A DNA stretch of 64,000 bases from Ignavibacteria bacterium (GTDB taxonomy: Bacteria > Bacteroidota > Ignavibacteria > Ignavibacteriales > Ignavibacteriaceae), in assembly GCA_030684555.1 (NCBI GenBank), contig JAUXVN010000039.1, positions 1 to 64,000 on the forward strand. Direction: 5' to 3'. Below the pieces are notes generated by a model. The model was not told where the DNA came from and did no database searches. It was given only the letters and a program-made list of their open reading frames with translations. Of the stretch, positions 14,771 to 62,885 are shown one piece after another (within the stretch, counting starts at the first letter, position 1; each line of letters opens with the position of its first letter). Position numbers and translations under genes: made by a program.

Positions 14771-15556
14771 ATGACATCCCGATCAAACAAATTTATGCTT
14801 ATCTCTTTTATAGCGACAATAGTTTTTATAATAACCGGATGCAGCAATAGGGAAAAGATTACCAATCTTTCGCAACTTGACGGGAAAGAGTTTGCAGTTC
14901 CAACTGGGACAGTTGCCGATAAACTTGTTTTATCAAAATTTCCGAATGCTAAATTTAAGTATTTTAATAGCGTACTTGATGCAAGTATGGCTGTAAAAGC
15001 CGGTAAAGCGGATGCCGCCGCATATGATGAACCGATCTTAAAAAATATTGCCGCAAAAAATCCCGGGTTAAAAGTTCTTTCTGAAATGATCACAGTTGAC
15101 AATTACGGTTTTGCAGTGAATCTTGAAAATAGTGAGCTAAAAAATTCTATTGATAGTGTGGTTGCCCAATTAAAATCAACCGGTAAATATGATGAACTAT
15201 TAACCCGCTGGCTCCCTAAAGCCGGCTCCCCCGGCACATTACCTCAAATTCAATTGACAGGAAAAAACGGTACACTGAAATTTGGTACGTCGGCAGTAAC
15301 TGAACCATTCGCATTTATAGACGGGACACAAAAAGTCACCGGTTTTGATATTGAAATAGCTTATTACATAGCTCAAAAACTTGATATGCAGCTTGAAATT
15401 ATTAATATGGATTTCGGTGCGATGATACCTGCATTAATTTCAAAAAAAGTTGATATGATTGGCGCTTGTATTACTATTACAGAAGAGCGTTCAAAGAGTG
15501 TGTTATTTTCAGTCCCATATTATACCGGTGGTATTGCTGCATTAATTAAAGAATAA
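14771..15556 (+). CDS. Amino-acid-type solute-binding lipoprotein with reversed lobe order
   Basis: A 261-residue lipoprotein (signal ending ITGC, Cys24). Residues ~30-150 look like the second lobe of a family 3 solute-binding protein (LSQLDGKEFAVPTGTVADK, VKAGKADAAAYDE, LKSTGKYDELLTRWL). Residues ~165-261 look like the first lobe (GTLKFGTSAVTEPFAFIDG, VTGFDIEIAYYIAQKLDM, MIPALISKKVDMIGA, ITEERSKSVLFS). In ordinary members the order is the opposite, so the protein appears circularly permuted. It is the first gene of a four-gene ABC operon, 12 bp before the fused permease. The ligand is unknown; amino acids or cystine-like compounds are plausible. Confidence 0.88.
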   Translation: MTSRSNKFMLISFIATIVFIITGCSNREKITNLSQLDGKEFAVPTGTVADKLVLSKFPNAKFKYFNSVLDASMAVKAGKADAAAYDEPILKNIAAKNPGLKVLSEMITVDNYGFAVNLENSELKNSIDSVVAQLKSTGKYDELLTRWLPKAGSPGTLPQIQLTGKNGTLKFGTSAVTEPFAFIDGTQKVTGFDIEIAYYIAQKLDMQLEIINMDFGAMIPALISKKVDMIGACITITEERSKSVLFSVPYYTGGIAALIKE

Positions 15557-15568
15557 CGGAAATCAATA

Positions 15569-17836
15569 ATGAAAAAAAATATTGTCGTTTGGTTTGTTTA
15601 TTCAATTCTTATTTTACTGCTGACAAGCTGTAGTGATACAAAAACATCAATTACTAAATTAGAAGATATAAAGAATATCTCTATTGGTGCGATGACCGGT
15701 ACCACCGGTGAACAAATTGCCATTACAAGATTTCCTGAAGCCAAAACAAAAAGTTTTGACGATATCATGGATGCTATTGCTGCATTGAAGTCAAATCAAA
15801 TTGAAGCAGTTATTACGGCATTTCCAACAGCATTAAATGTTACAAAGCATAATCAAGATTTAACAATCCTTTCTGAAGCCGTTGATTTTGAGAATACCTG
15901 TATTGCAGTAAAAAAGGGGAATGACGAGTTTCTTTCAACTCTTAATAATATAATTACTGAGCTTGAGAATGACGGCACATTAGCCGATATGAAACGGAGA
16001 TGGTTAAAAAATGATTTGTCCCCTTACGATGAACCAAATATTTTACTTCCAGAAAAAGGAAAACTGCTAAAGATTGGTACAAGCGCTACAAGAGAACCAT
16101 TCTGTTTTGTCGATGGAAATCAAAGAGTAACGGGACACGATGGTGAATTTGCAAGGAGAGTAGCTGCAAAACTAAATAGACAGATGCAGTTTGTTGATAT
16201 GAAGTTCTCTGCATTGATTCCTGCACTGCAATCAGGTAAGGTTGATATTATTGTAGCCGGAATGAGTTCAACCGAGGAGCGCGCAAAATCGGTCGATTTT
16301 AGTAAATCATATTTTAGAAACTCACAAGTTTTAATAGTTAAAAAGAGTGATGTATCAGACAATGTAATAGCAACAACACCGCTACTCCGAACTCCTTCGG
16401 ATCTAAAAGATAAAAAAATAGGTGTGCTGCTTGGTTCTGTTCATGATACTTACGCAATAAAAAATTATCCCGAAGCTGCATTACTCCAATATAAAAGTCC
16501 GCCGGAATTAGTTCTTGGCGTAAAGTCAGGTAAAATTGATGCTGCCCTTTATACAACCGAAACATTACTCGAAATTCTCCGTTTGGATAATGAATTGCAA
16601 ATGCTTGGCGATACACTCTTCACAATCCCTATAGGTATGGGGTTTAATAAAGGGAATAGTCAACTCAGGGAGAAATTTAATCAATTTCTAAAAGATATTA
16701 AGAGTGATGGTACTTTTGATGACATGAAAAATCGCTGGGTATTAAAGGGTGAAACCATAATGCCGGAGATTAAAAATTCTAAAAGAAACGGAACGCTTAT
16801 TGTCGGGACTGTAAGCGATAAAGGATTACCATTCACTATTGTTAAAGATAATCGAATGATAGGATTCGATATTGAAATATCTGAAAGATTTGCAGCCTAT
16901 CTCGGAAAAGAATTAAAACTCGTTGATATGGAGTTCGGAAGTTTGATTATTTCGGCGGTTACAAACAAAATCGAAATGATCTCAAGCACGTTGATGATCA
17001 CAGATGAGCGGAAAAAGCAAATTGACTTTTCCGATGAATATATGCGGCTTGGTGCAAGTGTTTTTGTTTTGGGAAAAAATCTTCAAACAAAAAATGTAAT
17101 CGGGGAAAGTTCAGAGAAAACTGAATCAATTATAACCAATTCATTTTTGTACTCACTTAAAGAGAGTTTCTATAACAATATAGTTTTAGAAAATCGTTAT
17201 CTATTGATTTTAGATGGTCTTCAGACAACAATAATTATTTCAATACTTGCAACAATATTTGGAACGCTGCTCGGTGGACTGATTTGTTTTATGCGAATGT
17301 CTAAAAACAAAATTTTATTAATACCGGCGAAGATTTATATATCAATTTTACGCGGTACGCCTGTTCTTGTAATTTTGATGATAATCTTTTATGTCGTGTT
17401 TGCATCTGTAGATATAGAACCTGTTATTGTTGCAGTGATTGCATTCGGACTCAATTTTGCCGCATACGTTTCTGAAATGTATAGAACCGGAATTGAAGGC
17501 GTGGATAAAGGGCAAACTGAAGCAGGTATCGCAATGGGTTTTACCAAGGTAACTACTTTTATTTATATCATTCTTCCTCAAGCTGTGAAAAGAATTTTGC
17601 CTGTTTACAAAGGAGAAGTTATTTCACTTGTTAAAATGACATCGATAGTCGGATATATAGCAGTTCAGGATTTAACCAAAGCAAGTGATATTATTCGTAG
17701 TCGTACATTCGATGCATTTTTTCCTTTAATCATGGTTGCAGTTTTATATTTTATTATCTCATGGCTTCTTATGTTTTCACTTGGATATGTTGAACGAATG
17801 ACGACTCCGAAGCCTAAATTGAAGAGGGGAGTGTAA
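15569..17836 (+). CDS. Fused solute-binding (two permuted modules) and HisM/GlnP-type permease
   Basis: A 755-residue lipoprotein-permease fusion (lipobox LLTSC, Cys21). Lobes read in order second (28-148), first (164-258), second (275-393), first (406-503), then a linker and a membrane domain (~540-745). The permease carries the EAA loop AGIAMGFTKVTTFIYIILPQ, marking the polar amino-acid family. Each pair repeats the reversed lobe order of the neighbouring lipoproteins. The acylated N-terminus and membrane C-terminus would hold four lobes at the outer face of the inner membrane. One base separates its stop from the ATPase start, so expression is tightly coupled. Confidence 0.9.
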   Translation: MKKNIVVWFVYSILILLLTSCSDTKTSITKLEDIKNISIGAMTGTTGEQIAITRFPEAKTKSFDDIMDAIAALKSNQIEAVITAFPTALNVTKHNQDLTILSEAVDFENTCIAVKKGNDEFLSTLNNIITELENDGTLADMKRRWLKNDLSPYDEPNILLPEKGKLLKIGTSATREPFCFVDGNQRVTGHDGEFARRVAAKLNRQMQFVDMKFSALIPALQSGKVDIIVAGMSSTEERAKSVDFSKSYFRNSQVLIVKKSDVSDNVIATTPLLRTPSDLKDKKIGVLLGSVHDTYAIKNYPEAALLQYKSPPELVLGVKSGKIDAALYTTETLLEILRLDNELQMLGDTLFTIPIGMGFNKGNSQLREKFNQFLKDIKSDGTFDDMKNRWVLKGETIMPEIKNSKRNGTLIVGTVSDKGLPFTIVKDNRMIGFDIEISERFAAYLGKELKLVDMEFGSLIISAVTNKIEMISSTLMITDERKKQIDFSDEYMRLGASVFVLGKNLQTKNVIGESSEKTESIITNSFLYSLKESFYNNIVLENRYLLILDGLQTTIIISILATIFGTLLGGLICFMRMSKNKILLIPAKIYISILRGTPVLVILMIIFYVVFASVDIEPVIVAVIAFGLNFAAYVSEMYRTGIEGVDKGQTEAGIAMGFTKVTTFIYIILPQAVKRILPVYKGEVISLVKMTSIVGYIAVQDLTKASDIIRSRTFDAFFPLIMVAVLYFIISWLLMFSLGYVERMTTPKPKLKRGV

Positions 17837-17837
17837 C

Positions 17838-18926
17838 ATGATCAGAGTAGAAAATTTGTCGAAGAAATTCGGTGAACTTACGGTATTGAAAGAAATCAAT
17901 ATTGAAATTCATAAGGGAGAAGTGATTTCTATTATTGGTCCCTCCGGTACGGGGAAAAGTACATTTTTACGCTGTCTTAATTTGTTGGAAACCCCAAGCG
18001 GCGGAAAAATATTTATCGATGAAATCGATATATTGGATAAGAGTACTGATGTTCCCAAGATTCGTCAAAAAATGGGAATGGTTTTTCAATCTTTTAATCT
18101 TTTCAGCCATCTCACGGTTATGGAAAATTTGACGATCGGACAAATTAAATTACTTGGCCGCAAGAAAGAAGAAGCCGAACAGAAAGCAATGGATTTACTT
18201 AAGTTAGTAGGACTTGCAGAAAAAGCTGACAGTTTTGCCGATGAACTTTCGGGTGGGCAAAAACAGAGAGTTGCTATCGCCCGCTGTTTATCAATGGATC
18301 CGGAGATTATTCTTTTTGATGAACCGACTTCTGCCCTTGATCCAACTATGGTTAGTGAAGTTCTTGCGGTTATTCGCCGGCTGGCAAAGGAAGGAATGAC
18401 ATTAGCAATAGTTACTCATGAAATGGATTTTTCACGGGATGTTTCCAACAGAGTTTTTTACATGGACGAAGGTTTGATTTATGAAGATGGTTCGCCTCAA
18501 CAGATATTTGAAAATCCACAAAGGGAAAAAACGAGAGCATTCATCAATAGAATCAGAAGTTTTAATTATAAAATAGACAGTCCCGATTTTGATCTCTACG
18601 CAATGAATGCTGAAATCGAACGTTTTTGTGAGAAGCATGTTCTCCCCAAAAAAATGATAAATAATGTGCTGCTTATTCTCGAAGAACTTATGATGATTAA
18701 TAAATCTGTATCAAAAGAAATTGATGTGAATCTAACTTTGTCATACTCTGAAAAACGGGATACACTCGAAATCATTTTCGAAAGCGGTGGTGATGAAGGA
18801 AATATCCTTGAAAAAATTGATCAGGACGAGATAGGTTTAATGATAATTAATAATCTGACCGAGAGCATTGAATATTCAAGTCTTAACAATAGGAACAAAT
18901 TAAATATGTTCTTAAAGAAAGGTTGA
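17838..18926 (+). CDS. Polar amino-acid ABC ATPase with RsbW-like C-terminal domain
   Basis: A 362-residue protein. Residues 1-240 are a normal GlnQ-type ATPase: Walker A GPSGTGKST (34-42), signature LSGGQKQR (137-144), Walker B ILFDEPTSALDP. About 120 further residues follow, where GlnQ proteins usually end. This tail (ALPHA: AEIERFCEKHVLPKKMINN; then LLILEELMMIN, LEIIFESGGDEGN, DEIGLMIINNLTESIEYS, NRNKLNMFLKK) follows the order of an RsbW/SpoIIAB-like GHKL kinase fold. Its ATP-lid residues are poorly kept (the N-box Asn is shifted by one, the G1 Asp is Glu), so it may be a binding or sensing domain rather than an active kinase. Confidence 0.9.
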   Translation: MIRVENLSKKFGELTVLKEINIEIHKGEVISIIGPSGTGKSTFLRCLNLLETPSGGKIFIDEIDILDKSTDVPKIRQKMGMVFQSFNLFSHLTVMENLTIGQIKLLGRKKEEAEQKAMDLLKLVGLAEKADSFADELSGGQKQRVAIARCLSMDPEIILFDEPTSALDPTMVSEVLAVIRRLAKEGMTLAIVTHEMDFSRDVSNRVFYMDEGLIYEDGSPQQIFENPQREKTRAFINRIRSFNYKIDSPDFDLYAMNAEIERFCEKHVLPKKMINNVLLILEELMMINKSVSKEIDVNLTLSYSEKRDTLEIIFESGGDEGNILEKIDQDEIGLMIINNLTESIEYSSLNNRNKLNMFLKKG

Positions 18927-18932
18927 AACGTA

Positions 18933-19703
18933 ATGAAAAGTACTTTCATCTTTATCGTGTTGTTAAGCTTTGTGTTTGTTTCATGTTCAAAGAAGAATGA
19001 AAAAATAAACGATATCTCACAACTATCTGATAAAAAGATTTGTGTCCTCACGGGTTCAGCAGGTGATATCGCTGCAAGAAAGTTTTTCCCTAATGCAAAA
19101 TTTCTTGATATGGTTTCGGCTGCGGATGCCGCTTTAACAGTAAAAACCGGTAAAGCAGATGCATTTATTCATAATAAAAGTGTATTGCTAAATATAATAG
19201 ATAAGGAAAGCGAATTAATTATTCTCGATAAACCTATCTCTGAAGTACTGATTGCAGGGGCGGTAAGAAAAAATAATGAAACCTTACTTAATGAAATAAA
19301 TAAAGCTTTAAATAAATTGAAAGCTGAAGGTATTTTATACGAGATGAAAAGAAAATGGATAAGCCCAAAATATCAATCGGTACCGGAGCTGCCGTTGCTG
19401 CAAACCAATAATCAAAATAGTATTCTCAAGATGGGGACATGTGCAAGAGCCGAGCCGTTATCATTTTTATATAATAATATTATTACGGGGTTCGATATAG
19501 AATTGGCTCTCAGAATCGGTGAAATAATTGGTAAAAAAATAGAAATAACTGATATGACGTTCGAGAGTTTAATCCCTGCACTGCAATTGGGGAAAATTGA
19601 TTTTGCATTCTCAAATTTTAATGTAACCGAAGAGCGTAAAAAGTTTGTTGATTTTTCGGAAGAGTATCTTTCAAACGATATTTCTGTTTTGGTAAAGAAA
19701 TAA
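18933..19703 (+). CDS. Second stand-alone solute-binding lipoprotein with reversed lobe order
   Basis: A 256-residue lipoprotein (signal ending FVSC, Cys18). Residues ~26-146 are second-lobe-like (ISQLSDKKICVLTGSAGD, VKTGKADAFIHN, LKAEGILYEMKRKWI). Residues ~158-256 are first-lobe-like (ILKMGTCARAEPLSFL, ITGFDIELALRIGEI, LIPALQLGKIDFAFS, VTEERKKFVDFSEEYLS). It follows the ATPase gene by 6 bp and closes the operon. It differs from the first lipoprotein enough to suggest a different ligand or a partner role. Confidence 0.87.
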   Translation: MKSTFIFIVLLSFVFVSCSKKNEKINDISQLSDKKICVLTGSAGDIAARKFFPNAKFLDMVSAADAALTVKTGKADAFIHNKSVLLNIIDKESELIILDKPISEVLIAGAVRKNNETLLNEINKALNKLKAEGILYEMKRKWISPKYQSVPELPLLQTNNQNSILKMGTCARAEPLSFLYNNIITGFDIELALRIGEIIGKKIEITDMTFESLIPALQLGKIDFAFSNFNVTEERKKFVDFSEEYLSNDISVLVKK

Positions 19704-62159: not shown

Positions 62160-62885
62160 ATGCTAAAAGTCTCTTTAATGCTCCTGTTTCTTTCGACTGT
62201 AGTGTTCAGCCAAAAAATAGAAACAATAGTGGTTGGAACCGGTTTTTATCCTCCATTCTCATTTAATAACGAGAAAGGGGAATTGGACGGTTACGACTAT
62301 GAGCTTGGAAATAAAATTGCAAAAGAATTGGGAAAGAAAATTGAGTGGAAACAACTTCCGTTCAAATCACTTTTTAGTTCATTAGATGAAGGTAAACTCG
62401 ATTTAATTATTGCTGCTATTCACATTACTGATGAACGTAAAAAGAAATATCTATTCAGCACTCCTTATACAAACACCGGACTTGTATTTATAATTTCAGC
62501 AGAGAGAAGAAAAGAATTTGAAAAAATTGATGATTTTTACTCCAAGAAAATAGCCGCTAAGGAGAAGTCAACCGGTTTGGAGTTTGTTATGAATAATAAA
62601 GAAAAATATAAGTTTATTATTGAAGAATGTGCAGAGACGGATTTGTGTTTTGTTGCATTGGAAAATTCTCGTGTTGACGCAATTGTAAGTGATTATTTAT
62701 CATCAAGACTATACCTCAAAAACGAATCAAAGTTTGTAATTGCAACACCTCCGTTTAATCTATGCGGAATTGGAATTGTTGCAAAAAAGAAAGATGCTCA
62801 ATTAATGAAATCCATTAATGATGTACTCTATAAACTTCAAAAAAGTAATTATTTAAAGAATTTATATATCAAATGGTTGTTGTAA
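62160..62885 (+). CDS. Family 3 solute-binding protein, normal lobe order
   Basis: A 241-residue exported protein (signal LLFLSTVVFSQ). First-lobe motifs come first (IVVGTGFYPPFSF, GYDYELGNKIAKEL, LDLIIAAIHITDERKKKYLF) and second-lobe motifs follow (IAAKEKSTGLEFVM, SRVDAIVSDYLSSRLYL, LKNLYIKWLL). This is the ordinary order, unlike the permuted proteins at 14771-19703. It is followed directly by a sensor gene, so it may serve signal perception rather than transport. Confidence 0.9.
   Translation: MLKVSLMLLFLSTVVFSQKIETIVVGTGFYPPFSFNNEKGELDGYDYELGNKIAKELGKKIEWKQLPFKSLFSSLDEGKLDLIIAAIHITDERKKKYLFSTPYTNTGLVFIISAERRKEFEKIDDFYSKKIAAKEKSTGLEFVMNNKEKYKFIIEECAETDLCFVALENSRVDAIVSDYLSSRLYLKNESKFVIATPPFNLCGIGIVAKKKDAQLMKSINDVLYKLQKSNYLKNLYIKWLL

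Follow-up and report, generated by a model that had tools for sequence, protein, structure and literature searches.

Introduction

Can the binding modules of an amino-acid importer carry their two lobes in reversed order along the chain and, if they do, which pair of lobes folds together? The question is raised by a four-gene operon at positions 14771-19703 of a 64,000-nucleotide stretch of DNA (the window) from the genome assembly of an Ignavibacteria bacterium. In order, the genes encode a lipoprotein (P1), a permease fusion with two binding modules (F1 and F2) ahead of its membrane domain, an ATP-binding cassette (ABC) ATPase (17838-18926) and a second lipoprotein (P4), all lying where a previous inspection of the DNA letters, here called the sequence-only reading, had placed their open reading frames (ORFs). 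That reading had proposed that lobe 2 precedes lobe 1 (order 2-1) in all four modules. The locus is concluded here, with a probability of about 0.9, to encode a polar-amino-acid-type ABC importer with naturally circularly permuted family-3 Venus-flytrap modules, each of which is an autonomous 2-1 unit.

Lobe order in the sequence

In a phmmer search of the PDB, residues 166-259 of P1 aligned to residues 9-102 of 6svf and residues 34-148 to residues 114-227, both with high significance, and it is because these segments align in the opposite order that the halves of P1 are read as swapped along the chain. The PF00497 (SBP_bac_3) profile matches two stretches in P1, three in the fusion and two in P4, its positions 1-91 falling at residues 169-260 of P1 and its positions 1-92 at residues 165-256 of P4. 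Whilst the scores of 108.7, 221.4 and 108.0 bits exceed the cut-off of 26.4 and place all three proteins in family 3 by profile, the canonical chain order of lobe 1, lobe 2 and C-terminal helix is found in none of the four modules, which are permuted homologues rather than ordinary members. The four can be aligned end to end, with 30-39% identity to P1.

The reversal is therefore borne out by hidden Markov model (HMM) and PDB sequence alignments, but a plain exchange of the two lobes is not what is found. The N-terminal half holds lobe 2 together with the helix that closes lobe 1 and ends in an RW motif, and because it includes this C-terminal helix of lobe 1 the arrangement is a circular permutation, the new ends of which fall within the first hinge. 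As the sequence-only reading had held, the protein encoded at 62160 has the normal order, with a single contiguous PF00497 stretch (3-130). A search of the organism's own genome for family-3 proteins found none besides this one and the operon genes, and a PDB search with the module profile gave no solved permuted family-3 structure, its best matches being canonical chains in two pieces along with contiguous multi-domain chains (the GlnPQ tandem and BvgS).

Two trivial explanations were discarded. An unrelated N-terminal domain, which the sequence-only reading had named as fatal to its proposal, is ruled out by the direct alignment of both halves to solved family-3 proteins, and split or frameshifted canonical genes are ruled out by the separate lipoprotein signal of each gene and by the repetition of the layout in relatives.

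The predicted fold

Structures were predicted with AlphaFold2 (AF2) on single chains, and the pairing of lobes within the fusion was read from fit statistics, predicted local distance difference test (pLDDT) values and predicted template modelling (pTM) scores. P1 is predicted to be one compact monomer (pLDDT 95.8, pTM 0.90). The top structural match to this model is OpuAC, with Z 13.1 and a root-mean-square deviation (rmsd) of 4.2 over 202 residues in chain order at about 11% identity, as against about Z 10 over 160-180 residues for canonical family-3 proteins; a viral structure library yielded no useful match. OpuAC is a known circular permutant, and the module is therefore read, from the model, as a circularly permuted Venus-flytrap with its new ends in hinge 1. 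The fold comparison that the sequence-only reading had proposed thus returns a confidently predicted compact fold closest to a permuted protein. Both halves are homologous to the canonical family, they are joined in the opposite way and they are predicted to fold as one domain, as in a permuted binding protein.

The chain would start just past hinge 1, form lobe 2, return to lobe 1 for its C-terminal helix, and then cross a conserved linker of about 18 residues to end with the N-terminal segment of lobe 1. Because both ends lie at the hinge, the lipid anchor and the membrane domain would be attached on the hinge side.

The unit that folds and is inherited

Relatives were collected with a four-module profile, and gene architecture was read with lobe-specific HMMs. 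A scan of named genomes gave 166 related stretches, and lineage labels and identities were taken from the best 80 of the 166, which come mostly from metagenome assemblies. Five independent lines point to the 2-1 pair as the unit that is folded and inherited, each pair folding on itself. The first is linker length, with a gap from lobe 2 to lobe 1 of 16-21 residues in every counted module and a gap from lobe 1 to the lobe 2 of the next module of 11-29. The second is co-evolution, the distance matrices of the lobes correlating at r 0.93 within a 2-1 module and at 0.35 between canonical neighbours. Third, the module types P1, F1, F2 and P4 shuffle between free lipoproteins and fusions as whole 2-1 pairs, with fusions of the order F1-P4-F2 in loci L145, L108 and L138, P4-F2 in L077, L089 and L106, and a lone F1 or F2 elsewhere. 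Fourth, minimal operons in Chlorobiaceae comprise an ATPase, a membrane domain without fused modules and one lipoprotein made of one 2-1 module, for which the operon therefore offers no other lobe as a partner.

The fifth line is structural and draws on the confident P1 fold and on the model of the fusion. The principal confidence drop of the fusion model falls at residues 242-249, the 1-to-2 junction between F1 and F2, and the 2-1 unit of F2 fits OpuAC at 4.0-4.5 Å, whereas real binding proteins matched in the canonical register across lobe 1 of F1 and lobe 2 of F2 fit at about 11-12 Å rmsd. Foldseek gave TMt values of 0.3-0.47 for canonical chains against this model.

The lobe HMMs read the architecture 2-1 in 86 genes, 2-1-TM (TM being the membrane domain) in 16, 2-1-2-1-TM in 10 and 2-1-2-1-2-1-TM in 12; the order 1-2 was read in only two genes, both stand-alone. 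The longest tandem observed is not among these classes: locus L171 (4177-7995) encodes a permease fusion of 1272 residues with four permuted modules. A single chain of 916 residues with the layout 2-1-TM-ABC-HATP occurs in a Bacillota genome (L202, 4609-7359). Two fusion permeases (L113, 9707-11446; L133, 1659-2585) have a partial extra lobe-2 remnant ahead of the membrane domain, which is probably a decayed module.

Ligand pockets

Pocket residues are numbered after a GlnH reference sequence that is taken to be correct, its length and residue checks being consistent. Arg75, the residue for the ligand carboxylate, is invariant across all module types. Asp157, which serves the amino group, is kept in all 76 P1 modules, and P1 probably binds an alpha-amino acid because this full clamp is retained. 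Among relatives, F1 has Ala, Ser or Gly at position 157, the strong matches to F2 mostly have Thr, and P4 has either Asp or Asn; in the window the residue is Ala in F1, Thr in F2 and Asn in P4. Since the Asp is altered though the Arg is kept, F1, F2 and P4 probably have other ligands or another role. Another invariant residue of P1 modules is the Cys at position 68 of the GlnH numbering, which lies in the pocket region.

Distribution and origin

Amongst 60 genomes searched with the profile, full-length permuted matches (E <1e-53) were found in six, the organism's own included, and the next matches, half-length and canonical, were no better than about 1e-17. In a phylum-wide sample permuted modules occurred in 42 of 395 genomes, many of which are Chlorobiaceae by their named loci. 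The labels of the best 80 of the 166 stretches include Ignavibacteria, Chlorobiaceae, Geobacteraceae, Pelotomaculum and other Bacillota, KSB1, Lentisphaerae, Verrucomicrobia, Desulfobacteraceae, Gemmatimonadetes, Burkholderiaceae and others. The search for the same order in other genomes, another check set by the sequence-only reading, thus finds it across many bacterial phyla. In a plasmid collection all matches were below 60% identity, the top ones being annotated as ordinary glutamine-binding proteins.

P1 is conserved to a degree unusual among binding proteins, with 61-81% identity across phyla in the same best 80. One genome (G123:C1) has two copies of the operon, at about 978-984 kb and 1183-1190 kb, with identical ATPase-domain scores. 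In L075, L082, L088, L121, L127 and L147, P1-like genes lie apart from the ATPase, and fusion-sized permuted ORFs are found elsewhere in the same genomes.

When the lobes were re-ordered and a tree was built from 56 permuted and 15 canonical sequences, the permuted modules formed one clade with a support of 0.979, and by these sequences they are probably of single origin. The tandem of GlnPQ (SBD1-SBD2, 6h30) is matched contiguously by the module profile, the match running on from lobe 2 in one family-3 domain to lobe 1 in the domain that follows. The permutation would have arisen once, most likely through duplication and trimming of a GlnP-like fusion of tandem binding domains; duplication with trimming is the standard model of permutation (PMC3320104), and for a tandem fusion it appears to be the simplest route.

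The ATPase and partner switching

The C-terminal 120 residues of the ATPase give a weak match to HATPase_c_2 (PF13581), the domain through which the anti-sigma kinases RsbW and SpoIIAB align with them. Unlike these kinases the domain is fused to an ABC ATPase, and the fused copies displayed no longer have the N-box Asn, G1 Asp, ATP lid or G2 glycines, whereas free RsbW-like neighbours in the same alignment retain the N-box, G1, G2 and ATP lid motifs. The fused domain is thus not an intact RsbW-type kinase and would probably serve as a regulatory docking site.

The domain and the permuted modules occur together. In the sample of the organism's own phylum, the RsbW-like domain was present in all 42 genomes with permuted modules and was found alone in one further genome, which is 81% complete. 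Bacillota loci fetched by the RsbW-like domain alone, in its ABC-fused form, had 2-1 genes alongside, divergent copies included. Of 62 RsbW-fused ATPases in the assembled loci, 61 had a permuted partner close by or within their own chain, and the domain was missing from three ATPases that neighbour canonical binding proteins; many of these loci had been fetched with permuted modules, the genome-level comparison being the fairer test of co-occurrence.

Genes for STAS proteins, SpoIIE-type phosphatases and intact RsbW-like proteins adjoin the operon in several loci, and these neighbourhoods suggest partner-switching control of the importer. A wider proposal is that permuted modules and pseudo-RsbW ATPase evolved together in a broad, single-origin class of importer, with a STAS/SpoIIE/RsbW switch that gates uptake or receives nutrient status; this is tentative and is given somewhat less than an even chance.

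The adjoining STAS, free RsbW-like HATPase and SpoIIE-type phosphatase genes were seen at L106 (4377-5135), L108 (5075-7039 and 13556-14320), L138 and L085 (6987-8868). One SpoIIE-type phosphatase carries Cache and HAMP domains, and the partner-switching set is complete in some loci. A gene for an NMT1/THI5-like binding protein also recurrently adjoins the operon in Chlorobiaceae and others (L108, 4081-5112; L113, 5840-6919; L133, 3835-4671; L138, 5875-6936; L089, 173-1165), and precedes the SpoIIE gene in L108, L113 and L138.

Alternative readings

The permutation could be real and the operon nevertheless act chiefly as a sensor feeding into a partner-switching pathway, transport having become secondary or been lost. 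The presence of the RsbW-like domain on the ATPase throughout would suit such a role, as would the adjacent signalling genes of several loci and the three window modules that have lost the amino-group Asp. This is considered unlikely, however, given that the profiles find the membrane and ATPase domains intact, that all 76 P1 modules retain the amino-acid clamp and that the ORF list of the window shows no STAS, SpoIIE or RsbW-like genes beside the operon.

Several observations weigh against the importer built from autonomous permuted modules that is preferred here. The amino-group Asp is absent from three of its four modules in the window, the structural support consists of AF2 predictions, the single-origin tree holds just 15 canonical sequences, and there are the partial extra lobe-2 remnants of the L113 and L133 fusions. 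Moreover, each prediction was of a single chain, and one module might therefore still form a domain-swapped dimer. In its strict form, each 2-1 chain would be an obligate homodimer in which lobe 2 closes on lobe 1 of the partner, and a loose domain-swapping dimer is indeed described for the closely matching canonical TmArgBP (PMC4022495). There is little chance of this for the present modules, in that AF2 predicts P1 as a confident compact monomer and the short conserved linker, ordered by confidence, suits packing within one chain.

That the fusion lobes pair instead as canonical neighbours (lobe 1 of F1 with lobe 2 of F2, about residues 164-393) and the end lobes are completed in trans by the lipoproteins, as the sequence-only reading had entertained together with a domain-swapped chain of fusion and lipoproteins, is scarcely credible: PF00497 and TIGR01096 each give a continuous canonical match at about 165-391 of the fusion, and whole-genome profile matches may even cross gene ends, but single-module fusions exist and all five lines set out above contradict the pairing and leave the swapped chain unsupported.

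The importer and its operon

The ABC amino-acid transporter of the sequence-only reading is borne out: the operon encodes an importer of the polar-amino-acid type, on which the TIGR01726, PF00528 and GlnQ-like ATPase profiles agree. TIGR01726 (HEQRo-type permease) scores 72.8 bits against a cut-off of 42.2, placing the permease among polar amino-acid uptake (PAAT) importers, and the GlnQ model matches the ATPase with an E of 1.4e-90, a match that falls short of the equivalog cut-off of that model. The two lipoproteins and the pair of modules tethered to the permease would all serve one transporter.

Table 1. Features of the operon, with the control protein elsewhere in the window
Feature	Position	Strand	Remarks
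Lipoprotein 1 (P1)	14771..15556	+	Stand-alone permuted family-3 binding protein, order 2-1; lipobox ITGC
P1 N-terminal half: lobe 2 and C-terminal helix of lobe 1	14849..15214	+	Residues 34-148 against 6svf 114-227
P1 junction, old C-terminus to old N-terminus	15215..15265	+	Pro-rich, conserved; mostly pLDDT 91-98
P1 C-terminal half: N-terminal segment of lobe 1	15266..15550	+	Residues 166-259 against 6svf 9-102
Permease fusion, 2-1-2-1-TM	15569..17836	+	Lipobox (LTSC) signal, two permuted modules, membrane domain
Fusion module F1, order 2-1	15641..16345	+	Linker lengths, shuffling, fusion model
Fusion module F2, order 2-1	16379..17074	+	Linker, shuffling, model; OpuAC match at model residues 251-488
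Membrane domain, polar amino-acid permease type	17204..17797	+	PF00528 and TIGR01726, both above cut-off
ABC ATPase domain, GlnQ-like	17838..18557	+	PF00005; NF007027, E 1.4e-90, below its own cut-off
ATPase C-terminal RsbW-like HATPase_c_2 domain, ATP-binding motifs lost	18558..18923	+	Weak PF13581 match; alignment of fused copies
Lipoprotein 2 (P4), stand-alone permuted binding protein, order 2-1	18933..19703	+	Profile and module alignment
Control outside the operon: family-3 binding protein, normal order 1-2	62160..62885	+	PF00497; lobe HMMs

Known systems compared

OpuAC was found by CPSARST to be a circular permutant of ProX, ModA and CysB (PMC2395249), and in the OpuABC system of Lactococcus it is fused to the permease (PMC2861598). 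This glycine-betaine binding protein (B. subtilis 2b4l/5nxx) shares with the window modules the type II fold and its chain order but is a single module of the betaine family, whereas the window has PF00497 family-3 modules in tandem arrays. By sequence the modules are not members of the OpuAC family, given an identity of about 11%, and a Pfam scan at E up to 1 matched PF00497 and related families with OpuAC not among them. The two are probably independent permutations. TpMglB-2 (Tp0684) of Treponema pallidum is a lipid-anchored natural circular permutant that keeps ligand binding, and tethering has been suggested to favour its permutation (PMC4990184); unlike the window modules it is a type I (cluster B) glucose binder, with another fold class and another cut point.

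GlnPQ of Lactococcus (SBD1-SBD2-TMD) resembles the window fusion in having tandem family-3 domains ahead of the permease, but its domains are canonical (1-2), starting with lobe 1 and ending with lobe 2. With its 2-1-2-1-TM layout the window fusion is not of this type, and GlnPQ may represent the type of ancestor rather than a fellow member. TmArgBP and the ancestral AncQR, the closest solved sequences to both P1 halves, likewise differ from P1 in their canonical order.

Implications

Natural permutation of binding proteins has been known so far as isolated cases, such as OpuAC and TpMglB-2, and is found here in a large amino-acid family across many phyla, in a module that is shuffled and stands in one to four copies before the permease. 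A search of open-licence papers, weak evidence of absence in itself, found neither a permuted amino-acid-family branch, nor its tandem permease fusions, nor an ABC ATPase with an RsbW domain, and the permuted module is apparently a new, widespread and undescribed variant. A caution for annotation is that family profiles read fusions of this kind out of register, as in the top PF00497 match here, which straddles two modules. The family also offers a clean test case for why the ends of a Venus-flytrap move to the hinge, for instance through tethering, whilst an ATPase with a decayed anti-sigma-kinase domain would tie nutrient import to partner-switching signalling.

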